DNA from: Rhodohalobacter sulfatireducens | GTDB lineage: Bacteria > Bacteroidota > Rhodothermia > Balneolales > Balneolaceae | Assembly (NCBI RefSeq): GCF_022012475.1 | Contig: NZ_JAKLWS010000009.1 | Coordinates: 1 to 64,000 of the forward strand | Direction: 5' to 3' | DNA: 64,000 bases | In this document: positions 39,931 through 64,000 of the stretch, piece after piece | Layout of the letters: each line of letters opens with the position of its first letter | Position numbering within the stretch: position 1 is the first letter of the stretch | Program-made: the position numbers and the translations under genes | The notes under the pieces: generated by a model | What the model was told of the DNA's origin: nothing | What the model saw: only the letters and a program-made list of their open reading frames with translations | Database searches by the model: none

Positions 39931-40515
39931 TTATGTGGCCCAGGTTTTGCCAACCTCTTCAAAGGGCATGCAGCCATTGTACATTCCGGGAACCGGCTCA
40001 TAGCGAAGAACTTCCGTAGCACCAACTTCGGATGTGAAGTACCCTAAAATGGTTAACTCCTTAAATCGCAGAAAAAATGGAGCATCCTGACCCCGATCTA
40101 TATCCAGCGAATTTTGATTTTCGTTGTAGGTGAATTCGTATCGATCTTCTTCGGCACTTTCATAGTATTCACCGCCAAGTTCCAGTCTTGATTTATCTGC
40201 AAATGTATCTAAGCCTTCAAGGAATTCTGCCTGCTGTTCATCAGTATATACATCGTTTATCATCGATTCTATAAATGCAGGGACTCCAGCTTCGCTTGCG
40301 GAGGGATACTCATCCTTCGGGATAATTACATCAGCCAGTGCCGATGTCAGACGAGCTTGTTCATCGGTAAAAAGTACCGGTTCCCAATTTACACCCGGCT
40401 GCGCCGTGCAACCTTGCAAAACACCTAATGCATTGGGGGCAAATACAGCACCACCGATCAAAAGTGCAGTTCGTTTAATCGCTTCTCGTCTGTCAATTTT
40501 ATTTGATTTATCCAT
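39931..40515 (-). CDS. Gluconate 2-dehydrogenase subunit 3-like protein (Tat-exported)
   Basis: A 194-residue small subunit that accompanies GMC-type membrane sugar dehydrogenases. The N terminus carries a twin-arginine signal (R9-R10 in IDRREAIKRTALLIGG) and a lipobox-like LQGC (C36), so it is likely exported folded and lipidated. The mature domain matches the family (FTDEQARLTSALADVIIPKDEYPSASEAGVPAFIESM, and FKELTILGYFTSEVGATEVLRYEPVPG). It probably brings its GMC partner through the Tat pathway as a complex. It lies 2 bases downstream of the GMC gene; TatC is encoded at 28 kb. Confidence 0.9.
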   Translation of the reverse strand: MDKSNKIDRREAIKRTALLIGGAVFAPNALGVLQGCTAQPGVNWEPVLFTDEQARLTSALADVIIPKDEYPSASEAGVPAFIESMINDVYTDEQQAEFLEGLDTFADKSRLELGGEYYESAEEDRYEFTYNENQNSLDIDRGQDAPFFLRFKELTILGYFTSEVGATEVLRYEPVPGMYNGCMPFEEVGKTWAT

Positions 40516-40517
40516 GT

Positions 40518-42215
40518 TTAAAGATTGTCTTTTTTAAGTTGATCAGCAGCATAGTTGGCCGCCCTGGCAGTTAAAGCCATGTAAGTTAATGAAGGATTTT
40601 GACAAGCCGCTGAAGTCATGCAAGATCCGTCGGTTACAAATACGTTTTTTACGGCGTGAACCTGATTCCATCTATTCAAAACTGATGTTTGAGGATCGCG
40701 CCCCATCCGGGCAGTGCCCATTTCGTGAATTCCAAGTCCCGGACCGCCCGGGTCATCGAACATCTCAATATTTTTAGCGCCTGCCGCTTCCAGCATCTCG
40801 GCAGCATCGTTCTTCATATCTTCACGCATTCTATATGTGTTATCACTAAACTCAACATCAAACACAAGAATCGGTTGTCCCCATTTGTCAGTTTCTGTTT
40901 CACTTAGATACACTTTATTGTCGTGATTTGGAAGCATTTCTCCAAACCCACCCATACCAATTGTCCATGAGCCCGGTTCCCGGAGCAGTTCTTTGAGCTC
41001 CATTCCCACGGCCAATTCGCGTACACCACGTTGCCAGGCTTCCCGGCTTGCACTCCCCTGGTAGCCAAATCCACGAATATATTCTCTGTTATTGCCATTA
41101 AGATTTCTGTAGCGCGGAATATAAAAACCGTTTGGACGGCGCCCCCAGTAATATCGGTCTTCAAAACCGTCAATATCGCCACTGGCCCCAACTCCTAAAT
41201 GGTGATCCATCACATTACAGCCCAACTCACCGGAATCATTTCCAAGTCCATTTGGAAATCGATCAGACTTGGAATTTAACATGATCATTGTAGAATTCAT
41301 TGTCGATGCATTCAGGAATATTACATCCGCATAAAACTCCTCCGTTTCTAAAGTTTCTGCATCAATAATACGTACGCCGGTTGCCTTTCCTTCATCCTCA
41401 TCATAAATAATTGAATTTACGATTGAATGTGGACGAAGTGTCATATTCCCGGTAGCAGATGCCGCGGGTAGAGTTGACGAATTACTGCAAAAATAGCCAC
41501 CGTACGGACATCCGCGGTCACAACGATTACGAAACATGCAGGGACCTCTACCCTCGTGCTGCTGCGTTAAATTAGCTACTCGTCCAATTGTAAGAGTACG
41601 GTCAAAAATATCAGCTATCGATTCCTTAAGTTTTTGCTCCACACAATTTAATTCCATTGGGGGAAGAAAATTCCCGTCCGGTAGTTGTGGAAGTCCCTCA
41701 GGTTGTCCGCTGATACCGGCAAAGCCCTCTATATAATCATACCATTCGGCGAGATCCTCGTACCGGATTGGCCAGTCAATAGCTATGCCCTCTCTCAGGT
41801 TCGCTTCAAAATCCATTGGAGACAAACGGTAGCTCTGGCGACCCCACATAATGGATCGTCCACCAACATGATACCCACGCATCCAGTCAAATCTCTTAAC
41901 CTCCTTGTAAGGCTGATCGGTGTCTTTAACCCACCAATGCTTAGTAGATTGGCGAACTGTGTAACCCGTCCGCATCTGCTTTTTATAGTGTTTAGCTTCC
42001 TCTTCTGTGAGTCGATCGGCATAGGGCAGCTCCCACGGATCTTTTAAAGCCGTTGGATAGTCTTCGATATGTTTAACATCCCGTCCTCGTTCAAGGACAA
42101 GTGTATTTAAGCCATTTTCTGTGAGTTCTTTTGCAGCCCAGCCGCCGCTTATACCCGTTCCCACTACAATAGCGTCATAGGTATTCTTCTTTTTTGCTTT
42201 AACATTCAAATTCAT
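40518..42215 (-). CDS. GMC-family FAD oxidoreductase (sugar/alcohol dehydrogenase large subunit)
   Basis: A GMC oxidoreductase of 565 residues. The dinucleotide fold is AIVVGTGISGGWAAKEL near residue 15, followed by VLERGRD, RSIMWGRQSYRLSP, the cysteine-rich GPCMFRNRCDRGCPYGGYF loop typical of the gluconate dehydrogenase type, GIHEMGTARMG and the C-terminal NPSLTYMALTARAANYA. It has no signal of its own and probably travels with the Tat-exported small subunit. Such pairs oxidise sugars or glycosides, often at C3. The start is put at ATG 42215; the longer frame beginning at TTG 42257 adds 14 unconserved residues. Confidence 0.93.
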   Translation of the reverse strand: MNLNVKAKKKNTYDAIVVGTGISGGWAAKELTENGLNTLVLERGRDVKHIEDYPTALKDPWELPYADRLTEEEAKHYKKQMRTGYTVRQSTKHWWVKDTDQPYKEVKRFDWMRGYHVGGRSIMWGRQSYRLSPMDFEANLREGIAIDWPIRYEDLAEWYDYIEGFAGISGQPEGLPQLPDGNFLPPMELNCVEQKLKESIADIFDRTLTIGRVANLTQQHEGRGPCMFRNRCDRGCPYGGYFCSNSSTLPAASATGNMTLRPHSIVNSIIYDEDEGKATGVRIIDAETLETEEFYADVIFLNASTMNSTMIMLNSKSDRFPNGLGNDSGELGCNVMDHHLGVGASGDIDGFEDRYYWGRRPNGFYIPRYRNLNGNNREYIRGFGYQGSASREAWQRGVRELAVGMELKELLREPGSWTIGMGGFGEMLPNHDNKVYLSETETDKWGQPILVFDVEFSDNTYRMREDMKNDAAEMLEAAGAKNIEMFDDPGGPGLGIHEMGTARMGRDPQTSVLNRWNQVHAVKNVFVTDGSCMTSAACQNPSLTYMALTARAANYAADQLKKDNL

Positions 42216-42327
42216 TTGAAGGAGATCTGGGGTTATAGATATGTCTGTACAAAGCAATTCCTGCTCAACCCTTAAAATGGTTTAAAAAGAGTTTTATTGT
42301 GAATTTTACAAAATTGTAAAGCAGAAT

Positions 42328-46058: not shown

Positions 46059-47564
46059 TTATAACTCAACTGCTGTATGCTGATACATATTATTGAGTTC
46101 CGGATTCATTAAACCAACAGTGTTAAATGGCTCAATTCGCTTTCGGAATTTTTTAATCTCTTGATTGATCTGCGACTCTGATAGTTTATCAAGATTCAGA
46201 TTTTGAATCTGAGCAAATGAGTCTTCGATAATCTTCCTGATTTCAGGATGACCGGCACATAAAAAAGTATCAGGAGTTTCTCCCGCCAATCTCTTCTGTT
46301 CATATCGAATCGAAGCAATAAAATAGATCATAGTACACGCCGAAAAAAGATCAAAGAGTCCTCTTGTTTTATAACACATCGAAACGAGTAAATCTATGAC
46401 AGACAATTCACTATAAATTTTATCTTCATAACTTTTAAGAAGCTCCTTTCTCTCTTTTTTATTAACACTTGGATGAAATAATTTCAAAAGAACCTCTACC
46501 CCGCTTAATGTATATGCTATTCCTGTGCTATGGAGAGGGTCAACAAATCCTGCAGTATGTGGCAAGACCACCCATCCATTTCCATAAACTCGGTTTAGTT
46601 TTCGTTGAAGTCTACCTGTTTTTATAAACTGATTTGGCGATTTGGCAATTTCAGCATCAATAAAGAGATCCTGCAATGATGGATATTGCTGAATAATCGA
46701 TTTCCAAGACTCTTCAGGGATATTATCTGAGTATTTTTTTTGAGCTGACTCATCAAGGAGCATTCCGGCACTTAAACGGTTATTGTTAAATCGAAGCATC
46801 CAAATCCAGCCCTCTTCTATTAGATGATGAAGAGCCGAGAAATCAGGATTATAGGGATAGTCCGAGGTTTTCAATCCCTTTAATTTCAGATAGTCCAACC
46901 AATGAGCAACCTCCTCAAAATGAGTATAAATTGCTGAAGAATGGGTTTTGAAACCGCTCGAATGGCTTTGAGTATTGAGAAAATTACTTGAGAATTGTGG
47001 ACTCCCGCTCGCATCAATGATCCAATTGGATTTAACTTCTTTTATCCTTTGGCTTGTTTCCAGGAAAATAGACCATCTTTCTTTTTTAGGATCTCTCGAA
47101 AGTTTTTGAATGTTCGTCTGATCAAAAAAACACACGCCGGTTTCTACCGCTTTATTAACCAAAAAATGATCCACATCACTTCGAAGCCAGTTTGTATCGG
47201 AATTCTGGTCATTTTCGCTTGCAGCCACCAATAGTTCACTGTTATGGTTCTTATCGGAACTGAAACTCTGCCCTTTTTTGTGGTGGTAATAGCTGAAACC
47301 ACGTTTTAAACCACATACTACTTCCGGATGATTTCTTTGCCACTCACCGTACCTGGATAGTTTTTTGAGAAAAGATAAGTCATAATCATCTGCCAGATCG
47401 CGTAAAATCATGTCAGCAATAGGAGTTGATGATTCACCGATCGCAAATCGGGGATGTTGATCGTTTTCAATCAAACAAACAGAATAGCCCATTTTGGTTA
47501 AAGCCATTGAAATGATTGAACCTGAAAAACCTGAGCCTACGATTAAATAATCAAACCTCTTCAT
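46059..47564 (-). CDS. Flavin-dependent halogenase-like FAD oxidoreductase
   Basis: A 501-residue flavoprotein related to flavin-dependent halogenases and their oxidoreductase cousins. FAD-binding GSGFSG is at 10-15, followed by the RFAIGESSTPIADMIL segment (GES(T)-type loop, 41-56), LRSDVDHFLVNKAVETG, WIIDASG and the FVDPLHSTGIAYTLSG flavin motif near 345. Halogenases have a WxWxIP motif; here the region reads EGWIWMLRFNNN, with WIWMLR resembling but not matching it, and a candidate active-site lysine lies in CGLKRGFSYY near 84. Halogenation is therefore possible but unproven. The start overlaps the end of the radical SAM gene by 4 bases. Confidence 0.78.
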   Translation of the reverse strand: MKRFDYLIVGSGFSGSIISMALTKMGYSVCLIENDQHPRFAIGESSTPIADMILRDLADDYDLSFLKKLSRYGEWQRNHPEVVCGLKRGFSYYHHKKGQSFSSDKNHNSELLVAASENDQNSDTNWLRSDVDHFLVNKAVETGVCFFDQTNIQKLSRDPKKERWSIFLETSQRIKEVKSNWIIDASGSPQFSSNFLNTQSHSSGFKTHSSAIYTHFEEVAHWLDYLKLKGLKTSDYPYNPDFSALHHLIEEGWIWMLRFNNNRLSAGMLLDESAQKKYSDNIPEESWKSIIQQYPSLQDLFIDAEIAKSPNQFIKTGRLQRKLNRVYGNGWVVLPHTAGFVDPLHSTGIAYTLSGVEVLLKLFHPSVNKKERKELLKSYEDKIYSELSVIDLLVSMCYKTRGLFDLFSACTMIYFIASIRYEQKRLAGETPDTFLCAGHPEIRKIIEDSFAQIQNLNLDKLSESQINQEIKKFRKRIEPFNTVGLMNPELNNMYQHTAVEL

Positions 47565-48514
47565 ATATGAGCAGTTGGTGGATTACATTCACATTCAATT
47601 TCAGGTAATATTTTTTGAGTAAGATTCATTTCATCAAGTCGTCGCTTTCTTTCATTGAAACATTTATCACACTCAGAGAATCTTTCAAGGTCCCACAAAT
47701 CACAAAATACTCGTCCCCTGTTCATTTTTAATGCATCCGTAAATACCGATTCAAGAGCCAAAATAGTTGGGGGAGTATATTCACCAGTTTTCTTCAGCTC
47801 CTCCATGATTCCATTTCCATCACGTACCGGTATAACTGAACAAGCCGTGCATCCACTATCGAAGGCAAATTCAACGGATCTGAGCGTCCATTCAATATTT
47901 TTAAGTGGATCAGTCAGGAATGGCGGGTTCAAAAGAATAAATGAACGAACATCGATCTCATTATTAACCAAAAAATGAGTAGCTTCAAAAAAATCTTCCT
48001 TTGTGATCTGTTTATTTAACTTTGGTAGAACATCCGGATGAATCGTCTCAAGGCCCATTGCAATTTCAAGTGATCCGCTAAGCAGATCTCGAAATTCAAG
48101 AATAAAAGATCCAATCAGCTTAGGATGGTTTTCTACAATCACGTGCTCATAATCGCTGAGAAGTTCAGCTATCTGTTCATATTCACTGCGTGGGATCGCC
48201 TTTCCATCAAAAAAATTGCCGCTGTTATATAGTTTAATCACTTTAGCTGATGGCAAGCGTTCCATCGCATATTCAATTTGAGCGGGAATTGCCCCGGCAG
48301 GAGTTGGATCATCCAGGGTATGGCGCCACAGATCACACATCACGCACTTAAACGGACACTCACGATTTGTTAAAAATACTGTATTTACATCTTTGACCGA
48401 TCCATCCTTTTGCATTTCCTGCTCATGCAAATACATGTACGGCTTCTCCGGGTCTACTCTAACCTTCGATGGGCGGTACTTCTCTACGGTTCTATTACTT
48501 ATTTCGTGAATCAA
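47561..48514 (-). CDS. Radical SAM protein, Elp3/RaSEA-like
   Basis: A 317-residue radical SAM enzyme. The cluster motif CPFKCVMC gives C53, C57 and C60 (CX3CX2C). The barrel continues with VIKLYNSGNFFDG, VENHPKLIG and LEIAMGLETIHPDVLPKLNK, patterns seen in the Elp3/MiaB-like and archaeosine-synthase-partner (RaSEA-like) branches. A C-terminal cysteine group (RVFCDLW, SECDKC, ECEC) could hold a second metal site. The only start is TTG at 48514. It is translationally coupled to the halogenase-like flavoprotein, so the two probably modify the same molecule. The substrate is unknown. Confidence 0.83.
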   Translation of the reverse strand: MIHEISNRTVEKYRPSKVRVDPEKPYMYLHEQEMQKDGSVKDVNTVFLTNRECPFKCVMCDLWRHTLDDPTPAGAIPAQIEYAMERLPSAKVIKLYNSGNFFDGKAIPRSEYEQIAELLSDYEHVIVENHPKLIGSFILEFRDLLSGSLEIAMGLETIHPDVLPKLNKQITKEDFFEATHFLVNNEIDVRSFILLNPPFLTDPLKNIEWTLRSVEFAFDSGCTACSVIPVRDGNGIMEELKKTGEYTPPTILALESVFTDALKMNRGRVFCDLWDLERFSECDKCFNERKRRLDEMNLTQKILPEIECECNPPTAHI

Positions 48515-48660: not shown

Positions 48661-50118
48661 GTGGCCATTCTAAAACGGTTTCTGTTCCTGGCAATTTTTT
48701 TTTCAATCATCTCTTTGCCTAATCTATACGGACAATTTTCAATTGAAACGTCAGGAATTTTTAGTTCTGAAAATACAACTCCATTTTGGTTTCAATCCAA
48801 CCGATATGGTGTGTACTCAGACGAAGGCAGCCAGTTTATGTCCAGATTGCAATACCATAATTCGTATGATACAGAGAACATTGATATTCTTTATGGTGCA
48901 AGTGCCATCGCTCGGCCGGGTGACCGATCAACTCTCTCATTTAACCAGGGATATCTGAAAGTTCGGGGATATGGACTTGAGTTTTCGGGAGGGCGTTTTA
49001 TGGATCCCTCACCTCTTTTTTATGATAATGAGCTCGGCATGGGATCTCTTGGAGTCAGCACGAATGCAACTCCTATTCCAAAATTAAAATTAGGATTACA
49101 TGACTGGTTAACCGTTCCCTACACAAACGACTTCCTGCAAGTATTCGGATATATCACTCATGGATGGCTCGGGAGTGCTCGTTTTGGAAGCGATGTTCTT
49201 CTGCATGAAAAAGCCGGATACTTTAAAATTGGGGGTGATCGAGTCCTAAATTTTTATGGTGGACTTGTACATTATGTAATTTGGGGCGGTAGTACGCCAG
49301 AAGAAGGTAATATACCCAGTGGATTATCGGATTTTATTGACGTTTTCTTTGCGCAGAGTGGCGATGCATCTACTCCCGGGAGTGAGGAAGCGTATGTCCT
49401 GGGGAATCAATTAGGTACGTGGGCTTTCGGCTCTCTGATAGATCTTAATGAAGCAGATATTTCTGTTTACCTGCAATCACCTATCGAAACCAAGTACGAC
49501 TTAAAACTCAGTAATATGAGTGATATTCTTACCGGTGTTTCTGTTAATTTTTCTGAAGAGTTGAAGCTGCCAATAGATAGTTTTGTGTACGAATATATGT
49601 ATACAAAAAATCAGAGTGGGCCCAGGCGGTTAAACCCCGATGCCGATCCGAGTATTGATAAATACAGGGGAAACCAAAATTACTATAACCATGAGATTTA
49701 TGAGACTGGCTGGGCTTATCAATTGAGAACCATCGGGAATCCACTTTTTAAACCAGACCCGGATTCTCTGGGAATCCTTAATAACCGGATTGTGGCTCAT
49801 CATATTGGTTTAGAGTCGAGCTTCAGTCAAACGAAGATTTTTGGAAAAATTACATACAGCAAGAATTTCGGCAAGCGATGTGATAATCGTGTACCGGATT
49901 TGGGAGAGGGGGAACTTTTTGGAATCCAGTGCGATAACGAAGTAAAAATAGGATCAAGCCGATCTCTCACGCAATGGTCATTTTTAGCCGGTGCAGAATT
50001 TCCACTGCCAATTAATCTGAATGAAAATATCCGACTTCGCTTAGAAGCTGCTTTTGATGATGGAATCCTTTTTGGAGACCAATTCGGAGTACTAACCAGT
50101 ATTAAGTGGACTCTTTAA
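48661..50118 (+). CDS. Wzi-family capsule assembly outer-membrane protein
   Basis: A 485-residue exported beta-barrel protein (signal peptide cleaved near NLYGQF, residue 25). The mature sequence alternates short beta strands with loops, starting with TPFWFQSNRYGVYSDEGSQF and FNQGYLKVRGYGLEFSGGR, and ends with a strand pair closing in SIKWTL, suited for outer-membrane insertion. This matches the capsule-assembly Wzi family of Bacteroidota. It begins with GTG and has a TATCTTTG box at 48619-48626, a possible -7 element. No capsule synthesis genes are adjacent, so its role in capsule attachment is by family only. Confidence 0.8.
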   Translation: MAILKRFLFLAIFFSIISLPNLYGQFSIETSGIFSSENTTPFWFQSNRYGVYSDEGSQFMSRLQYHNSYDTENIDILYGASAIARPGDRSTLSFNQGYLKVRGYGLEFSGGRFMDPSPLFYDNELGMGSLGVSTNATPIPKLKLGLHDWLTVPYTNDFLQVFGYITHGWLGSARFGSDVLLHEKAGYFKIGGDRVLNFYGGLVHYVIWGGSTPEEGNIPSGLSDFIDVFFAQSGDASTPGSEEAYVLGNQLGTWAFGSLIDLNEADISVYLQSPIETKYDLKLSNMSDILTGVSVNFSEELKLPIDSFVYEYMYTKNQSGPRRLNPDADPSIDKYRGNQNYYNHEIYETGWAYQLRTIGNPLFKPDPDSLGILNNRIVAHHIGLESSFSQTKIFGKITYSKNFGKRCDNRVPDLGEGELFGIQCDNEVKIGSSRSLTQWSFLAGAEFPLPINLNENIRLRLEAAFDDGILFGDQFGVLTSIKWTL

Positions 50119-50212: not shown

Positions 50213-51574
50213 TCACTTATACAGAGATCTGAAATAATCCCGGTAAACCATTTCATTATCCGGGAAAACCTTCTCAAAATCATCCATCTTTACAGTACCA
50301 TGCTGCATTCTTCGCTTTGGAAAAACCGGCATATTCAATCCGGTTATGGCTTTTACTCCTCGTTGAACGATCTCACCTTTTAAAGCATAAAGCTCTTCAT
50401 GTTTCCAGTCCGTTAACTGAATGAATGGGATCCCTTCCGAAACTTCAATCACATTGGGAAGTGAATAGGGACTGAACCCCTCAAAACCATAGTAATCAGC
50501 AGTAGCATATGTTCGAACACTTCCACGGCTTTGGCCTCCGCTATATGTTAATGAATGCTTAATTTTATCGACACCCCAACCTTCATGATAGAGCAATGAA
50601 TTATTCAGAACACTGCGAATGGTAAGTTCAGGATTCTCTTCGATAGGGTAAGACTTAAGGTTTTCATCTCCCCCGTCTCCATCAACAAGATATTTCCAGT
50701 TTGGATATTTCTTCCTGATCAATTTACAGAGAGCTAATGCGGTGGTTGCGGCTTCTACATCCCGTTGTTTATAATCCTCAATAACTCGAATGGTCTGTTT
50801 GTAATCCAAATCTGAAAGCTCACCTTCTATTACTTCCAGGAACATGCTTAGATCCAGTGAATCCAGGAATTCATATGCCTGTGATGCATCCGGACCATTA
50901 TTGACAGAAAGTGTAAATGCTTTTAATCGAGCCGGTGACTCTCCCCTCTTTAGTAACAAATTATATAAAGTCAGAAATACAGAACCACTGTCTATACCTC
51001 CGGAAAAAAGAACTCCAATGGGTTCATCCTTAGGAATTGAATCCAACCATTTCCCTAATTCATTTGCCATGGCACCAACATAGGCTTCGCCAATTTGATT
51101 GAGGTCGGCATTGATTTGATTCCGTTCGGGAGTAAAATAACGCTTGTAATCCGGGTTCGGATCCGGGCAGCCCACAACATCCAGTTTTGTGACATAATGA
51201 GCAGGTACCATTCGGGTATAATCCGGACGAAATTGATGGTGTAAATCTAACTCTTTAAGGTAATCATAGATATGATCTATCCTTTCAGCAACCACAAGCA
51301 GTGGTCCGTCAACTTGTTTAGCCATGAAATATCGCATGGGCCGTCCAATTGATCGAGCCATGCGAACTTGTTGGCCCTGCTTGGTTACAATAGCAAAACT
51401 ACCGTCAATGTTTCGGACTTCTTCAGGGTCACCATTTGCTACGATATCTTCAGCCTCTTTGTGAGACATGTTAAATATTTGATTTTTATCTGGATCAATC
51501 AGATTGGCAAAATCGTGGAGTTTTTGAATAATCTTAGGCATGGAAATCAGTCTTTTATCATGTTGTGTTTTCAT
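50213..51574 (-). CDS. Asparagine-synthetase-like protein with degenerate glutaminase domain
   Basis: A 453-residue relative of class B asparagine synthetase. The C-terminal synthetase domain is intact: pyrophosphate motif LFSGGIDSG at 189-197, VDGDGGDENL near 292, and PVFPKRRMQHG near the end. The N-terminal part keeps only later strands of the glutamine-amidotransferase fold (NIDGSFAIV, RSIGRPMRYF). It lacks the terminal Cys2 nucleophile and the substrate arginine motif, so it cannot hydrolyse glutamine. It may use ammonia, or form an amide or adenylate on another substrate, as beta-lactam synthetases do. ATG 51574 is used; M12 is an alternative start. Confidence 0.82.
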   Translation of the reverse strand: MKTQHDKRLISMPKIIQKLHDFANLIDPDKNQIFNMSHKEAEDIVANGDPEEVRNIDGSFAIVTKQGQQVRMARSIGRPMRYFMAKQVDGPLLVVAERIDHIYDYLKELDLHHQFRPDYTRMVPAHYVTKLDVVGCPDPNPDYKRYFTPERNQINADLNQIGEAYVGAMANELGKWLDSIPKDEPIGVLFSGGIDSGSVFLTLYNLLLKRGESPARLKAFTLSVNNGPDASQAYEFLDSLDLSMFLEVIEGELSDLDYKQTIRVIEDYKQRDVEAATTALALCKLIRKKYPNWKYLVDGDGGDENLKSYPIEENPELTIRSVLNNSLLYHEGWGVDKIKHSLTYSGGQSRGSVRTYATADYYGFEGFSPYSLPNVIEVSEGIPFIQLTDWKHEELYALKGEIVQRGVKAITGLNMPVFPKRRMQHGTVKMDDFEKVFPDNEMVYRDYFRSLYK

Positions 51575-51640: not shown

Positions 51641-52099
51641 CTATTCAGGAATTCTTGAATCAAACTGAAAATTGAATACCTCTTTAATTTTTACCTTATC
51701 CATTTGAGGATGAGCGGGATTGATCAAAACATTCCAGTCTGTTCGTACCAAAGCTGACGGCACTTGCAGCATCAGGCTTGCCCCGGACTGTACCCATCTG
51801 CTTCCTATCCTTGCTAATTCATGTGGTGAAGGATAATCCATCCAATTATCGGGTAATTCGTTAGGGTCAACACTTTTAAGTGCAATGGATGAAGGTATCG
51901 ACAACACCAATAAACTCAAATCATTCGGAATTTCTGAAATGGGAGTATGAGCAAGTATTTCAAGAGCAGCCAGGGATTCATTCTGAGAGGCATAAAGCAT
52001 TGCCGTTCCTTGTTCATTCCATCGTCCTCCAAATCTTCTTGAACCCTCACCGCTCAAATCACGAATGTATTGTTTTTTCGTAATTCTGAAAAGATCCAT
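51641..52099 (-). CDS. RES-domain toxin
   Basis: A 152-residue RES family toxin. RES toxins deplete cellular NAD+ by an ADP-ribosyltransferase-like fold. The family pattern is visible: LFRITKKQYI at the start, GSRRFGGRWNEQG with the conserved arginine/glycine/tryptophan run, MLYASQNESLAALEIL with the conserved tyrosine, serine and glutamate, and the late NVLINPAHP. It starts one base inside the stop of the antitoxin gene (TGATG), the usual antitoxin-first order. Confidence 0.92.
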   Translation of the reverse strand: MDLFRITKKQYIRDLSGEGSRRFGGRWNEQGTAMLYASQNESLAALEILAHTPISEIPNDLSLLVLSIPSSIALKSVDPNELPDNWMDYPSPHELARIGSRWVQSGASLMLQVPSALVRTDWNVLINPAHPQMDKVKIKEVFNFQFDSRIPE

Positions 52100-52527
52100 C
52101 AGGAATACACACCATGTTCCAGCCTTCCAAGTTCATTCATTATCATTCGGATGCCAAAACTTGTATCAAGCAGGCTCAGAGGAGTTTGGCCACCCAAACC
52201 AACTAATGAGCTTTGCAACCACCGCTGAAAGGATTCTCTGTTATCAAAGACTTCAGCTCCTTTGGCGAATACTTCTGCAATGAGAAGAGCATGATCGGAT
52301 ACTTCTCGTGGGAGAAGATCTCCTCCACTGTAGCGTTGAATGGTTCGAAGGGAAACAGGCAGTAATTCAGTGAATTGCTTTATTGACAGACCACCAATTT
52401 CTGCGAGTTTTTGAAGTGATTTTTTTGAGATTCCAAGACGAGCCAACTCTACCAAATTCATCGACGAAGATGTTTCGTAGGATACTGCAGCTTCTCTAAG
52501 AATATTATCTATGGATTCTATACTCAT
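52099..52527 (-). CDS. Xre/MbcA/ParS-type antitoxin of the RES toxin
   Basis: A 142-residue antitoxin. The N-terminal half has an Xre-like helix-turn-helix (ISKKSLQKLAEIGGLSIKQFTELLPVSLRTIQRY), and the C-terminal half is the toxin-binding domain (HALLIAEVFAKGAEVFDNRESFQRWL ... SLLDTSFGIRMIMNELGRLEHG). The complex would neutralise the RES toxin and repress its own promoter. The start is put at ATG 52527; the longer frame begins with TTG at 52539 and would run into the operator-like repeat upstream. Confidence 0.92.
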   Translation of the reverse strand: MSIESIDNILREAAVSYETSSSMNLVELARLGISKKSLQKLAEIGGLSIKQFTELLPVSLRTIQRYSGGDLLPREVSDHALLIAEVFAKGAEVFDNRESFQRWLQSSLVGLGGQTPLSLLDTSFGIRMIMNELGRLEHGVYS

Positions 52528-52537
52528 GGAAATATGC

Positions 52538-52564
52538 AATTTGTCATTATTCTAACGACAAATT
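52538..52564. promoter_or_regulatory. Inverted-repeat operator of the Xre-RES operon
   Basis: AATTTGTC (52538-52545) and GACAAATT (52557-52564) are perfect 8-base inverted arms with an 11-base spacer, ending 11 bases upstream of the antitoxin ATG. This fits an autoregulatory site bound by the antitoxin dimer. Confidence 0.55.
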
Positions 52565-57324: not shown

Positions 57325-59541
57325 GTGCGACACTTATTATTAACATGTATCCTTATTCTATCAACTCAATTATTCACATTTGCCCAAAACAGCAGGGAAT
57401 TGATGGATATTGATTTCCTTTATATAAGTGCTCATCCCGATGATGAAGGTGGGTTTACAGGTACTATGGCTCGATATAATTTAGATGAAGGGTATCGTGG
57501 TACAATAGCCAATTTTACACTGGGTCAGGGAGGTGGAAATGCAATTGGACCCGAAGTTGGACAGTCTCTTGGGTTGATTCGATTTGAAGAACTTCGAAAA
57601 TCTTTATCCTTTGCCGGTGTTGATCGTTTTTATTACTTAGGATTCCAGGATTTTTATTTTACACAGTCAGCTGCACTTACTGATAAAAAATGGAGTGAAC
57701 AAGATCCCGATTACCTCTGCCGGTTGATCAGGGTTATTCGTTTGACACGTCCTGAGGTATTGGTAACAATGTGGCCGGGGCCGGGTACACATGGTCACCA
57801 TCAGCTTGCGGCTCGCTCTGCAATTCGTGCTTTTAATCTCTCAGCAGATCCAAATACATGCCCATCTCTGATCGAAGATGAATACCTGGAACCGTGGCAG
57901 CCTTTAAAAATATATATCTCAGCTCCGGGGGATCGATCGAGCATTGAAGTTCCCTTGAACGAATTTTCACGTTCCGCAGGTATGACTTATGCAAATTTAC
58001 GAGCCATCGCACTTAGAAATTTTAGAACACAAGGTTGGGACCGATGGAATACCGTACCGTCTCAAAGAACCGATTCTGAGAAACGATTACTTGTAAAATC
58101 TCATGTACCGGTAGGGCACCCCGAAACACATTTTCTTGAAGGAACTCACATTCCGGCTGGTTCTTCGCCCCCGGGAGTATTATTAAAGATCGACACTGAA
58201 TCTTACCAGGTATCTTCAAATGATCCATTTGAGGTGCATACTGAAATTGCAAACAATACTGAAAAAACATTCGAAAATGTTACAATTGAGCTGGTATTAC
58301 CGGATGGATGGAACACCTCAGAGAATAATATCTCAGCTGGAAATCTTTCAACTGGTGATAGCAAAAAACACTCATTTGTAATTTCGCCCAAAGGCCAGGT
58401 GGAAGTGAATACTCAACAGAAGGTTTGGGTAAAATACACAGCAGAGACAGATGGAAATATTGTAAGCGGTCTTAATTATACCTGGATTGAACCCACCCCT
58501 CCTATTCATGTCCAGGTTCAACCACTTTTTGATATTCAGTATTACAGAGAATTTGCAGCTGAAACAGGAACAGAGTGGCTAACTCCCAATCTTCCTACAA
58601 GGCTTCCTGTAACCATAAACGGGGATAACACCGTAACCGTCCAGGTCTCAAATACGGGTACTGAAGAAATATCAGGGGAACTTGATTTTGACCTTCCGGA
58701 CGGGCTGATTGCATCCGGAAATTATTCATTTTCACTTCAACCGGGTGAAACTTCAAATATCAAAGTAGGAATTGAAGTATCAGACACTGTTCTTCCAAAC
58801 AATGAGCATTCTACAGCTTTGGCTGGAACAGTAATTGCCAAAACGGGATCATTCACCGATTCTGAGGAAATAAATATCTACGCTCTTCCATCTCTTGATG
58901 TATCAAGAACTGCTGACAACCCCGTTATTGACGGAGAACTTGGAGATATGTCAAACTTCAGTTCAGGCAGAATTAACCATGTGGATACTTGGTCGGGTGA
59001 AGCTGAAAGTAATGACGATGCCAGTTCTGACTTCCATCTTGCCTATGATGAAGAACATCTTTATGTAGGAGTTGAGGTTCGAGATAACGATGTACTCTGC
59101 CACATGCCTCCTGATCGGATTCGAAACCATTGGTATGGTGATGCTATTGAGTTAACAATTGACCCATTTGGAACTAGTACAGATGTTTCAACGACTTTTA
59201 GAGCAAGTATTTTCCCATGTTCAACTGAAAGTTTCGAACCCAATGCAGCCAGGTATGGAGATGAAAATTCAGGTGCTATGTCTGATGTTTCTCCGGGTAC
59301 AAGAGTTGCTTCAAGTCAAACAGAGAGTGGTTATATCATTGAATTGGCTATACCGTGGGATGAAATGCCAAATAGACCATCTCAGGGAGATAATATTCGA
59401 TTTAACTTGCTGGTCTATGATGCAGATGCAGATGACCCTGATGTAGGTGGTGACTATGGAAAAAGTCGAATTGGTTGGGGATCGGTTGTGGGTGCTCAAC
59501 AGGCTACAACTTATTTATGGCCAACCGTTACACTCGAGTAA
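57325..59541 (+). CDS. PIG-L deacetylase with NEW3 and CBM9-like domains, exported
   Basis: A 738-residue secreted protein (signal peptide to about residue 20, TFAQ). The PIG-L/LmbE zinc deacetylase domain (about 28-270) has the metal motif AHPDDE (36-41), TLGQGGGNA, YYLGFQDF and GTHGHHQLAAR with the third zinc histidine. Two NEW3-type beta-sandwich regions follow (about 285-375 and 400-525). The last 200 residues match CBM9-like carbohydrate-binding domains (VDGELGDMSNF, FHLAYDEEHLYVGVEVRD, YGDAIELTIDP, ELAIPWDEM, GWGSV). It probably removes N-acetyl groups from an extracellular glycan. A promoter and operator-like site precede it. Confidence 0.88.
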   Translation: MRHLLLTCILILSTQLFTFAQNSRELMDIDFLYISAHPDDEGGFTGTMARYNLDEGYRGTIANFTLGQGGGNAIGPEVGQSLGLIRFEELRKSLSFAGVDRFYYLGFQDFYFTQSAALTDKKWSEQDPDYLCRLIRVIRLTRPEVLVTMWPGPGTHGHHQLAARSAIRAFNLSADPNTCPSLIEDEYLEPWQPLKIYISAPGDRSSIEVPLNEFSRSAGMTYANLRAIALRNFRTQGWDRWNTVPSQRTDSEKRLLVKSHVPVGHPETHFLEGTHIPAGSSPPGVLLKIDTESYQVSSNDPFEVHTEIANNTEKTFENVTIELVLPDGWNTSENNISAGNLSTGDSKKHSFVISPKGQVEVNTQQKVWVKYTAETDGNIVSGLNYTWIEPTPPIHVQVQPLFDIQYYREFAAETGTEWLTPNLPTRLPVTINGDNTVTVQVSNTGTEEISGELDFDLPDGLIASGNYSFSLQPGETSNIKVGIEVSDTVLPNNEHSTALAGTVIAKTGSFTDSEEINIYALPSLDVSRTADNPVIDGELGDMSNFSSGRINHVDTWSGEAESNDDASSDFHLAYDEEHLYVGVEVRDNDVLCHMPPDRIRNHWYGDAIELTIDPFGTSTDVSTTFRASIFPCSTESFEPNAARYGDENSGAMSDVSPGTRVASSQTESGYIIELAIPWDEMPNRPSQGDNIRFNLLVYDADADDPDVGGDYGKSRIGWGSVVGAQQATTYLWPTVTLE

Positions 59542-60678: not shown

Positions 60679-63600
60679 ATGAGTATGAAATCACTCAGGT
60701 TGCTTTCCTTATTCTGCGTCCTACTTTCTTTTTTTCTATTAAAAGCTTGTTCATCAAAGGAAGACTCCCTCCCACTTTTTGAATCTCTTTCATCAGATCA
60801 AACAAACATAACATTCGAAAACAATTTAAGGTCGGATTCTGATTTTAATGTATATAAATACAGAAATTTTTATAACGGTGGCGGAGTGGCCATTGGTGAT
60901 GTAAACCAAGATAGCTTGCCAGACATATATTTTACATCAAACAGAGATTCTAATCGACTCTATATGAATAATGGAGATTTAACATTTACGGATGTTACAG
61001 AAAAGGCAGGAGTATCCGGTTCAAAATCCTGGACAACAGGTGCAAGTTTCGTTGATATCAATGGTGACGGATTCCTGGATATTTATGTAAGTAATTCCGG
61101 TGAATTTGAAACAGATCAGAGAAGGAATGAACTCTTTATTAATAACGGTGATGGAACCTTTACTGAGTCGGCGGCAAAATACGGCCTCGATCATCCCGGG
61201 TACTCAATTCATGCTAATTTCTTTGATTACGACCTTGATGGGGATCTAGACCTGTACCTTTTGAATAATTCCGACGCATCCATTGTTGATTTTGATCTAA
61301 GCCTTGATCATCGATCAAAGCCTGATGAATTTGGTGGTGATAAACTATTCAGGAACGACGGTGAGTCGTTCACAGATGTTACTGAAGAAGCCGGTCTTTA
61401 CAGCCCCGAAATTGGATTTGCCCTCAGTGCCTCCGTATCAGATCTCAACCGAGACGGTTTTCCCGATTTATATATTGCAAACGACTTTTTTGAATACGAT
61501 TACCTCTATATGAATAACGGTGATGGTACTTACAGCGAGGTACTGAAAGAACAAATAAATGGTATAAGTGCCGCTTCAATGGGAACCGATATCGCTGATC
61601 TTACTAATAACGGATGGCCGGATATCTACGTAACAGATATGCTGCCAATGTCTGACGAAAGAATGAAAATGATCACCACATATGAGAACTGGGAATTATT
61701 TTCGCAAAAGCAGGAACAGGGTTATCACTACCAGTTCACGAGAAACACTCTTCAGCTCAATAATGGGAATGGAACCTACTCAGAGATTGGCAGACTTGCC
61801 GGCGTTGAAGCATCTGATTGGAGTTGGGCAACTCTGATAGCTGATTTTGATCAAAATGGACACAATGACATTATTGTCACTAATGGACTGTTACAGGATA
61901 TTACAAATCTCGACTATATCGAAGATATTAACAATCCGGATATGGTTCGTTCAATAATATCTGATGACAATGTTGATTATGATAGACTGGTAGAAATGAT
62001 ACCATCAACCCCGATGCCGAATGTTGTGTATGCAAATTACGGTGGTTTAAACTTCCAAAATGTAACGGAAGAGTGGGGCTTGGGAGAACCCGGGTATTCG
62101 AGCGGCGCAGCATGGGCAGACCTGGATAACGATGGAGATCTTGATATTATCATTAATGATGTTAACGGCGTGGCTAAAGTTTATAAAAACAGAGCCAATG
62201 AATCTCCGGAACAAAACTGGCTGAAGATTCGGTTACACGGCAATTCCCCCAATACCTTTGCAATTGGGGCAAAAGTTGAAGCCTGGGCTGATTCATCATA
62301 CTGGTTCAGGGAGCATTATCTGCAACGAGGATACCAATCAAGCGTTGAACCCGGTATTTTTATGGGACTTGGTAATCACCAAACCATTGATTCTTTGAAG
62401 GTTCACTGGCCAAATGGCAGTGTAACCAGCTTAACGGATTTAAGAGCTTCTCAAACCATTTCTTTGGAGCAACAGGAAGCTGATGTGAATACAGGGCATC
62501 AGTCTTATAACTTGCCGGCATATATCATGGGAGATATATCAAAAGACCAAGCTGATCATACACCTTTGTTTACGGATATTACAGATGAAGTAAATTTAAA
62601 TTGGTCACACGAGGAGAACGAATATATCGACTTTAACAGGGAGCCACTTCTATTACATATGAGATCTACAGAAGGGCCTGCGCTTTGTTCTGACGATGTA
62701 AATGAAGATGGTTTTGATGACATCTACATAGGTGGAGGAAGAGGTCAAGCCGGCATTCTTGTGATTCAAACGGAAAACGGTTTTCAAATACGTAACTCTC
62801 CCATTTTTGAAGAGGATTCAATTTCAGAAGATACAGATTGCACCTTTTTGGATGCGAATGGAGACGGCTTCCAGGATCTCTATGTAACAAGCGGTGGAAA
62901 CTCTTTTTCTACAGGAGCCTCTGCCCTGTTTGACAGGCTGTATATAAATGATGGTAATGGAAACTTTAAAAAGGATAATACTTTCGTCTCCCCTGGTGGT
63001 TATTCAACAAACTCAACAGTTTCATCCGCCGATTTTAATGGAGATGGTTCTACAGATCTTTTTGTTGGCGAACGAATGCGACCTTTTATGTTTGGAATGC
63101 CCGTTCGTGGATTTCTTTTGATAAACGATGGCAATGGTAGTTTTACAGAGCAATCAAGTCAATGGAATGCTGATTTCGAGCAGTTAGGATTGATTACAGA
63201 CTCTGTTATTCTTGATTGGGATGGAGATACACTTCCTGATCTCGCAATTGCCGGTGAATGGATGCCAATCCGTATTTTCCGAAATACTGGGAATTCATTT
63301 GTTGAAATAACCAATGATCTCGGACTTCAGAATTCGAGAGGCCTCTGGAATACTCTTCATGTAGTGGATTTAAATGCTGATGGCAGAGATGATCTTGTTG
63401 CAGGTAATCTTGGACTGAATTCCAATTTTAAAACAGATGAAGAGAATCCACTGAAACTTTGGATACAGGATTTTGAAAATGATGGTATACCGGAACAAAT
63501 TCTCACCAGGTCGTATCGGAGTTCTGATTATCCATTTGTATTAAAACACGATCTTTTAAATCAAATCCCCTCTCTCCGTGATAAATATCCCGACTATTCT

Positions 63601-64000
63601 GACTATTCCGATCAAACGATCAGTGACTTATTTTCTGCCGAAGTTTTAGAGACTTCAAATATTTTACAAGTAGATTTATTAGAAAGTGTTGTGATATTCA
63701 ATACACGAGATGGATCAGATATTAAAAAACTCCCGTTAAGAAGCCAGTTTTCTTCCATATATGATTTTTGGAGTGGAAATTTAACCGGTGATAATGCGCA
63801 TTTAGTTACCGTTGGAAATCTCTTCGAGGTTAAACCAATGGCAGGACAATATGATGCCAGTTACGGTTCCGTTGTTACTTCTGAACTCAGATCTGTACCA
63901 GAACTGATCAGTGGTTTTTCTGTTGAAGGAGCCTCAAGAAGAATTATTTCTGTTGAAAATTCGGCAGGCGAAACCATTCTTGTAGTTGCCAGAAACAGTA
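60679..64000 (+). CDS. FG-GAP/VCBS-repeat lipoprotein with ASPIC/UnbV domain, 3' end outside window
   Basis: An uninterrupted frame of at least 1107 codons from ATG 60679 (lipobox LLKAC, C24) to the window end. It holds many calcium-binding-type FG-GAP repeats, among them DVNQDSLPDIYF, DINGDGFLDIYV, DYDLDGDLDLYL, DLNRDGFPDLYI, DLDNDGDLDIII, DVNEDGFDDIYI, DANGDGFQDLYV, DFNGDGSTDLFV and DLNADGRDDLVA. An ASPIC/UnbV domain lies between the repeat blocks near residues 512-595 (NWLKIRLHGNSPNTFAIG and LKVHWPNGS). Such proteins form beta-propellers on the cell surface and in Bacteroidota usually stand with SusC/SusD-type glycan uptake genes, which may lie just outside. The family length suggests only a few codons are missing. 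Confidence 0.9.
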   Translation, partial: MSMKSLRLLSLFCVLLSFFLLKACSSKEDSLPLFESLSSDQTNITFENNLRSDSDFNVYKYRNFYNGGGVAIGDVNQDSLPDIYFTSNRDSNRLYMNNGDLTFTDVTEKAGVSGSKSWTTGASFVDINGDGFLDIYVSNSGEFETDQRRNELFINNGDGTFTESAAKYGLDHPGYSIHANFFDYDLDGDLDLYLLNNSDASIVDFDLSLDHRSKPDEFGGDKLFRNDGESFTDVTEEAGLYSPEIGFALSASVSDLNRDGFPDLYIANDFFEYDYLYMNNGDGTYSEVLKEQINGISAASMGTDIADLTNNGWPDIYVTDMLPMSDERMKMITTYENWELFSQKQEQGYHYQFTRNTLQLNNGNGTYSEIGRLAGVEASDWSWATLIADFDQNGHNDIIVTNGLLQDITNLDYIEDINNPDMVRSIISDDNVDYDRLVEMIPSTPMPNVVYANYGGLNFQNVTEEWGLGEPGYSSGAAWADLDNDGDLDIIINDVNGVAKVYKNRANESPEQNWLKIRLHGNSPNTFAIGAKVEAWADSSYWFREHYLQRGYQSSVEPGIFMGLGNHQTIDSLKVHWPNGSVTSLTDLRASQTISLEQQEADVNTGHQSYNLPAYIMGDISKDQADHTPLFTDITDEVNLNWSHEENEYIDFNREPLLLHMRSTEGPALCSDDVNEDGFDDIYIGGGRGQAGILVIQTENGFQIRNSPIFEEDSISEDTDCTFLDANGDGFQDLYVTSGGNSFSTGASALFDRLYINDGNGNFKKDNTFVSPGGYSTNSTVSSADFNGDGSTDLFVGERMRPFMFGMPVRGFLLINDGNGSFTEQSSQWNADFEQLGLITDSVILDWDGDTLPDLAIAGEWMPIRIFRNTGNSFVEITNDLGLQNSRGLWNTLHVVDLNADGRDDLVAGNLGLNSNFKTDEENPLKLWIQDFENDGIPEQILTRSYRSSDYPFVLKHDLLNQIPSLRDKYPDYSDYSDQTISDLFSAEVLETSNILQVDLLESVVIFNTRDGSDIKKLPLRSQFSSIYDFWSGNLTGDNAHLVTVGNLFEVKPMAGQYDASYGSVVTSELRSVPELISGFSVEGASRRIISVENSAGETILVVARNS

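Follow-up and report, generated by a model that had tools for sequence, protein, structure and literature searches.

A candidate pathway joining a radical SAM enzyme, an asparagine-synthetase-like ligase, and an optional halogenase-like flavoprotein in Rhodohalobacter sulfatireducens and other bacteria

The first 64,000 nucleotides of contig NZ_JAKLWS010000009.1 of Rhodohalobacter sulfatireducens (RefSeq assembly GCF_022012475.1), here called the window, carry three genes on the reverse strand that encode a halogenase-like flavoprotein of the PltM/CtcP type (positions 46059 to 47564; 501 amino acids [aa]), a radical S-adenosylmethionine (SAM) enzyme (47561 to 48514; 317 aa, with a TTG start as called), and an asparagine-synthetase-like ligase lacking the N-terminal glutaminase cysteine (50213 to 51574). 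Comparative analyses of these genes suggest a small conserved pathway with at most three enzymes, in which the ligase and the radical SAM enzyme form the constant pair, the flavoprotein is an added step, and the product has a role linked to UnbV_ASPIC/FG-GAP proteins. We assign this reading, including the UnbV-tied function, a probability of about 0.45. The genome is 5.1 Mb, and its closest named relatives found were mostly metagenome-assembled genomes (MAGs) of Balneolaceae.

RESULTS

The ligase consistently accompanies the radical SAM enzyme.

A first-pass annotation, made from the sequence of the window, had suggested that the flavoprotein and radical SAM genes may form a small stand-alone modification system. 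The two open reading frames (ORFs) lie where it placed them and share 4 bases (ATGA) at 47561 to 47564, as it had noted. Its statement that no biosynthetic core gene stands beside them was incomplete, having overlooked the ligase gene 1.7 kb upstream of the pair on the same strand. This gene likely starts at 51541 (442 aa, MPK...), as in relatives. Between the ligase and radical SAM genes lies a divergent Wzi-family gene (48661 to 50118, forward strand; PF14052, 72.9 bits), which was found there in some Balneolaceae, including the window, and not at other loci; it is lineage-specific and outside the system.

When the flavoprotein regions of 26 related genomes were taken and their neighboring genes clustered, the recurring order was ligase, radical SAM enzyme, flavoprotein, all on one strand. 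Genome-wide searches of 98 related genomes (Balneolales and kin) identified the radical SAM gene in 30 and the ligase (E < 1e-190) in exactly the same 30; a 31st ligase match (E of 9e-7) is, by its score, an ordinary asparagine synthetase. The flavoprotein (E < 1e-50) was present in 29 of the 30 radical SAM-positive relatives versus 0 of the 68 negatives, and the pairing of the two genes is not due to chance. The sole relative with the radical SAM gene and without the flavoprotein (G011) has its radical SAM gene 5 bases from a contig end. Three more flavoprotein matches were found in radical SAM-negative genomes (E of 7e-4, 1e-5, and 7.5e-41); the strongest, L054 (3819 to 5444, forward strand), is a separate halogenase-like protein, from a genome of the same order, with an intact WMWVIP motif.

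To extend these counts, 84,980 species genomes were scanned with the radical SAM alignment, which yielded 442 relatives; all 80-locus counts given here refer to the best 80 of the 442. The titles of these 80 include Balneolaceae, Planctomycetota, Bacteroidales, Cytophagales, Maribacter, Lutibacter, Acidobacteriaceae, Chthonomonadales, Calditrichota, and Marinimicrobia. Locally, the ligase was found at 66 of the 80 loci, the flavoprotein at 45 (contig-end fragments included), and all three genes at 36. The ligase gene directly preceded the radical SAM gene at 57 of the 80 loci (same strand, gap of <300 bases), and, by the same measure, the radical SAM gene directly preceded the flavoprotein gene at 44 of the 45 flavoprotein loci.

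We also searched 26 of the 80 genomes whole, picked for a locally missing ligase or flavoprotein, with most other flavoprotein-less loci left out. The ligase was present in all 26, twice as a contig-end fragment and in 11 genomes on a different contig from the radical SAM gene. The flavoprotein (E < 1e-80) was present in 13, and in 7 of these, all Planctomycetota, it was encoded away from the radical SAM gene. The expectation that the two genes are neighbors in relatives is supported at most loci that carry both, these 7 genomes being exceptions. It was found in 13 of the 15 whole-searched Planctomycetota (two of the 15 are titled only "bacterium") and in none of the other 11 genomes, which comprise nine Bacteroidota by title, one Marinimicrobia, and one Calditrichota (titled Bacteroidales, Cytophagales, Maribacter, Lutibacter, Bacteroidetes, Marinimicrobia, or Calditrichota). 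Elsewhere it was present at L110, a locus titled Bacteroidota, and at both Acidobacteriaceae loci seen. Because the ligase accompanied the radical SAM gene in every whole-searched genome and the flavoprotein in only half of them, we regard the ligase and the radical SAM enzyme as the constant pair and the flavoprotein as an optional addition; we reject a two-gene system, because the radical SAM gene is accompanied more constantly by the ligase than by the flavoprotein.

No gene was common to most of the regions around the stand-alone Planctomycetota copies (7 flavoprotein and 9 ligase regions), and the few shared gene groups there link only two or three similar genomes. A search of phages returned zero matches, and a search of plasmids returned two remote Streptomyces homologues only (~25% identity). 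On a Streptomyces plasmid, a remote radical SAM homologue (L224, 9929 to 11044, forward strand; ~26% identity) lies beside genes for a P450, a serine hydroxymethyltransferase, and a carbamoyltransferase, a neighborhood that suggests a natural-product cluster.

The flavoprotein has the fold and the predicted catalytic lysine of PltM and CtcP.

The flavoprotein matched the Pfam Trp_halogenase family (PF04820; 51.6 bits versus a cut-off of 21) and, by phmmer, PltM (141 bits). Searched as a profile against the PDB, it scored 294 bits with PltM, 257 bits with CtcP, and 33 bits with a digeranylgeranylglycerophospholipid reductase (3oz2). An AlphaFold2 model built from 34 sequences (mean predicted local distance difference test [pLDDT] score of 94.2) matched PltM over 471 residues (Z score of 43.4) and CtcP over 475 residues (Z score of 42.1), with other halogenases (Z scores of 25 to 33) and the monooxygenase PqsL (Z score of 27) further down. 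A grouping with geranylgeranyl reductases, the alternative to a halogenase named in the first-pass annotation, is not supported: the score against TIGR02032 (57.2 bits) is under the cut-off of 158.8, 3oz2 falls far behind PltM, and no geranylgeranyl reductase appears among the 50 structural matches listed.

The likeness to PltM and CtcP extends over nearly the whole length, including the C-terminal helical region, the flavin adenine dinucleotide (FAD) motif, and the lysine at residue 87 within CGLKRGFSYY. In the FAD motif (GxGxxG; GSGFSGS in the window), G10 and G12 are present in 50 of 50 aligned sequences and G15 in 49. Lys87 is present in 50 of 50 (49 of 49 without L054), and a profile alignment places it at Lys87 of PltM and at the corresponding lysine of CtcP, in line with the correspondence that the first-pass annotation had raised. 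The PltM K87A mutant is inactive (PMC6424973), and the CtcP counterpart is Lys98 (PMC12400496). Since it aligns with the catalytic lysine of both enzymes and is conserved in all 50 sequences, Lys87 is very likely, as judged from the alignment, the catalytic lysine.

The flavoprotein differs from PltM and CtcP in its identity to them (~24%), in its partners, a ligase and a radical SAM enzyme, and in one motif. It has WIWMLR (residues 253 to 258), as read in the first-pass annotation, in place of WxWxIP, the motif of flavin-dependent halogenases. Among 49 family members (L054 left out), the position of the WxWxIP proline holds Arg in 41, Pro in 6, Lys in 1, and Gly in 1, and the whole motif is kept in two members, both Planctomycetota. 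On a quick tree (16 of 47 inner branches weak, long outgroup branch), the R/P state changes at least four times, which places the R and P forms in one family. Because the WxWxIP motif was looked for and is altered in the window protein, we call it halogenase-like rather than a halogenase; its substrate may be halogenated or hydroxylated. Identity to the window protein is 33 to 56% in 33 relatives, and a C-terminal NMYxHTA tail is conserved in the family.

RaSEA is the nearest named family of the radical SAM enzyme.

The radical SAM protein carries the motif CPFKCVMC, and CxxxCxxC is present in 80 of 80 relatives, while the Pfam score is borderline (PF04055; 29.2 and 29.9 versus a cut-off of 29.5). 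Its only strong named match is to TIGR01210 (RaSEA), with 109.6 bits over residues 33 to 311 of 317; two relatives scored 105 and 109 bits. Because these scores are about half of the cut-off of 212.15, we do not file the enzyme as RaSEA. A sequence search of solved structures gave no match for it.

The first-pass annotation had also pointed to a C-terminal cysteine cluster. A four-cysteine cluster (C..C ... C.C) is present, and a CxxC with at least three cysteines within the last 70 residues was found in 78 of 80 relatives, the exceptions being L132, which is without the cluster, and L158, whose ORF continues into another protein. The cluster is also missing in 3 of the 14 rows of the radical SAM alignment (L049, L050, and L052, all from relatives) and is thus conserved widely, not universally.

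In archaea, ArcS adds lysine to preQ0 in tRNA and RaSEA turns the adduct into archaeosine, the two forming an ArcS-RaSEA complex (PMC11298593). The window protein resembles RaSEA in a match of near full length and in having a partner that may attach an amine donor, as ArcS does; it differs from RaSEA in its score and in that its partner is an AsnB-family ligase. Searches for TGT-family genes in 16 genomes gave a single match in 14, including the genome studied here; one of the other two had two full-length matches and one had two adjacent pieces. These counts give no clear sign of an ArcS or ArcTGT paralogue, and none of that type was found in R. sulfatireducens. The tRNA target entertained in the first-pass annotation therefore keeps one hint, the similarity to RaSEA, and the archaeosine reading is weakened.

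The ligase is a conserved AsnB-type enzyme without a glutaminase cysteine.

AsnB-type ligases adenylate a carboxylate and then pass it to an amine. The window ligase matched PF00733 (45.8 bits versus a cut-off of 21) and fell under the cut-off for glutamine-hydrolyzing asparagine synthetase (TIGR01536; 41.5 versus 267.1 bits). It shares with asparagine synthetase B, beta-lactam synthetase, carbapenam synthetase, and TsnB9 the synthetase fold and the ATP-pyrophosphatase motif SGGIDS, which is present in all 10 alignment rows. A model built from 41 sequences (mean pLDDT of 83.5, with stretches of <50 between residues 297 and 336) matched beta-lactam synthetase (Z score of 24.6 over 368 residues) and asparagine synthetases (Z score of ~23) in a near tie, followed by carbapenam synthetase (Z score of 21) and the hydroxyamidotransferase TsnB9 (Z score of 19). 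Unlike these enzymes, the ligase has a shortened N-terminal domain in which the glutaminase cysteine is missing; the structural match starts at reference residue ~40, so the cysteine-bearing N terminus is absent. At the site of GEGSDE in asparagine synthetase, the ligase reads GDGGDEN. It is more conserved than either of the other two proteins, with 56 to 83% identity to the window in 40 relatives, and forms a distinct family. Each of the three enzymes thus belongs to a known superfamily, yet each is below every curated NCBIfam cut-off among the matches listed.

UnbV_ASPIC proteins co-occur with the system.

Proteins with UnbV_ASPIC domains were found in 30 of 30 radical SAM-positive relatives versus 21 of 68 negatives (Fisher P value of 8e-12) and, counted by genus, in 7 of 7 positives versus 12 of 34 negatives (P value of 0.002). 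In a phylum sample of 345 genomes, in which 27 weak radical SAM matches (E of 1e-19 or worse) were counted as negative, they were present in 21 of 21 positives versus 148 of 324 negatives (P value of 1.6e-7). The 98-relative and 345-genome samples overlap, and the P values overstate the evidence because the genomes are related. All 26 whole-searched genomes also encoded UnbV_ASPIC proteins.

Association was also seen at the level of the locus. A protein clustering with UnbV_ASPIC was encoded within the fetched stretch at 26 of the 80 loci, with gaps of 3 to 2,818 bases, and at 16 of these 26 the UnbV-type gene lies ≤150 bases from the ligase or radical SAM gene. Among non-Planctomycetota genomes in which UnbV proteins were counted, 11 of 11 loci had such a neighbor, versus a rough chance of 2 to 10% each. 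The R. sulfatireducens genome has 12 UnbV matches, at least four on the window contig and one inside the window (60679 to 63999, forward strand; PF07593, 68.4 bits, and PF13517, 235 bits). The last, an UnbV_ASPIC/FG-GAP protein whose gene runs off the window end, is a candidate functional partner of the system and, from its N terminus, is probably secreted. Beyond the window, the contig holds three more matches at 79.7, 88.1, and 95.0 kb. In Planctomycetota genomes G409, G410, G417, G420, and G427, short UnbV_ASPIC frames of ~200 to 215 aa were seen versus the usual 550 to 1,200 aa. The name UnbV derives from enediyne clusters; a search of the open-licence literature found nothing on a link.

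Other features of the window.

A convergent DUF2207 gene adjoins the flavoprotein gene downstream, and a promoter and terminator scan gave only chance-level results. Directly upstream of the ligase gene is a RES-domain/Xre-MbcA-ParS pair (51641 to 52539, reverse strand), a probable toxin-antitoxin module; similar pairs occur near the system in several related genomes. Genes for a GMC oxidoreductase and gluconate 2-dehydrogenase subunit 3 (39931 to 42257, reverse strand) have related genes recurring nearby in several relatives, and a PIG-L deacetylase domain is fused with CBM9 and NPCBM-associated domains at 57325 to 59541 (forward strand). Genes for DAHP synthase, RidA-like, and Peripla_BP_6 proteins are recurrent neighbors at Bacteroidota loci and at a few others.

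DISCUSSION

In the pathway that we propose, the ligase would activate a carboxylate as an acyl-adenylate and couple it to an amine not made from glutamine in cis. The radical SAM enzyme would then, via a 5′-deoxyadenosyl radical, cleave or rearrange the adduct, perhaps in the way that RaSEA processes the lysine adduct made by ArcS. Where present, the flavoprotein, with FADH2, O2, and Lys87, would halogenate the product at an electron-rich and probably aromatic moiety, with hydroxylation as an alternative in view of the changed WxWxIP loop. We expect the product to be a single conserved compound or modification, not a variable antibiotic, and its role to be linked to UnbV_ASPIC/FG-GAP proteins. 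More tentatively, and with a likelihood that we place well below even, the AsnB-type ligase without glutaminase, the RaSEA-like radical SAM enzyme, and, optionally, the PltM-type flavoenzyme would define a previously undescribed, phylum-crossing route to a single conserved cofactor or protein modification on which UnbV_ASPIC/FG-GAP proteins draw. Searches of the open-licence literature listed no account of these three genes as a set.

Several observations weigh against this proposal. The nature of the substrate and product is conjectural, and the order of the steps is a guess. RaSEA-like chemistry is drawn from a match at half the family cut-off, and halogenase activity is predicted only, for a window flavoprotein without WxWxIP. 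The absence of the flavoprotein does not simply track anaerobic life, as it is missing from two Planctomycetota MAGs and from Maribacter and Lutibacter, which are aerobes. UnbV_ASPIC proteins occur without the system in many genomes (148 of 324), and no Planctomycetota are among the 26 loci with an UnbV neighbor, the exception being a separate ligase locus (L263); the UnbV link could for these reasons reflect lifestyle.

The chemistry of the flavoprotein is the point on which a competing view comes nearest. That it is a monooxygenase or oxidase and not a halogenase is a serious possibility, if somewhat short of an even chance: WxWxIP has been proposed to exclude monooxygenase chemistry, its proline is replaced by Arg in most members, and PqsL is among the structural matches. 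Set against this are the catalytic lysine in all 49 members, the 6 that keep the proline (two with the whole motif), the repeated R/P changes that put both forms within one family, and the far closer match to PltM and CtcP than to PqsL. A natural-product role, in which the genes would be tailoring enzymes of a cluster for a halogenated secondary metabolite, has in its favor that flavin halogenases and AsnB-family ligases, such as beta-lactam and carbapenam synthetases and TsnB9, are typical of such pathways. We consider it unlikely given the high conservation of the ligase, the lack of any small ORF common to more than 3 of the 80 loci, and the lack of nonribosomal peptide synthetase, polyketide synthase, or terpene domains in the 20 neighbor proteins given to Pfam, other neighbors not having been scanned. 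A cluster for a ribosomally synthesized and posttranslationally modified peptide was rejected, as no conserved precursor was found (ORFs of 25 to 110 aa, at the sensitivity used), and a redox cofactor acting via c-type cytochromes was dropped, a protein with at least two CxxCH motifs being encoded at only 4 of the 80 loci.

Two further readings concern the target. The enzymes might modify a protein, most likely of the UnbV_ASPIC/FG-GAP type, or build a cofactor on one, like the quinone-cofactor maturases QhpG, LodB, and GoxB. Related flavoprotein sequences speak for this (at E of up to 1e-5, QhpG was matched by 34 of 34 flavoproteins, GoxB by 33, and LodB by 29), as do the UnbV-type genes ≤150 bases away at 16 of 80 loci and the UnbV proteins encoded by every tested genome with the radical SAM gene. 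QhpG, too, is partnered by a radical SAM enzyme, QhpD, but the one studied here matches RaSEA and not QhpD, and the window flavoprotein scores far below the maturase cut-offs, its closest solved structures being PltM and CtcP. Together with the Planctomycetota genes lying apart from UnbV genes (one exception seen) and the abundance of UnbV proteins without the system, this leaves such a maturase-like role improbable in our estimate. Still less probable is an archaeosine-related tRNA modification in which the ligase replaces ArcS and the radical SAM enzyme acts as RaSEA. The near-full-length RaSEA match and the conservation of the ligase and radical SAM enzyme across phyla would fit it, but the score is about half of the cut-off, a single TGT-family gene is the rule, the system is found in only 30 of 98 relatives, and archaeosine synthesis has no step to which a halogenase-like enzyme would correspond.

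If the proposed pathway of up to three enzymes is correct, orphan halogenase-like and orphan radical SAM genes, which annotation would file as unrelated tailoring enzymes, would join one conserved pathway, present in records titled with at least six phyla (Bacteroidota, Planctomycetota, Acidobacteria, Chthonomonadales, Calditrichota, and Marinimicrobia). Some hosts are cultured strains (Maribacter and Fodinibius), which opens the pathway to gene deletion; Fodinibius roseus and F. sediminis carry all three genes, and Maribacter carries those for the ligase and the radical SAM enzyme. The pathway would also offer a way to ask what UnbV_ASPIC proteins, which are abundant in bacteria, may require.

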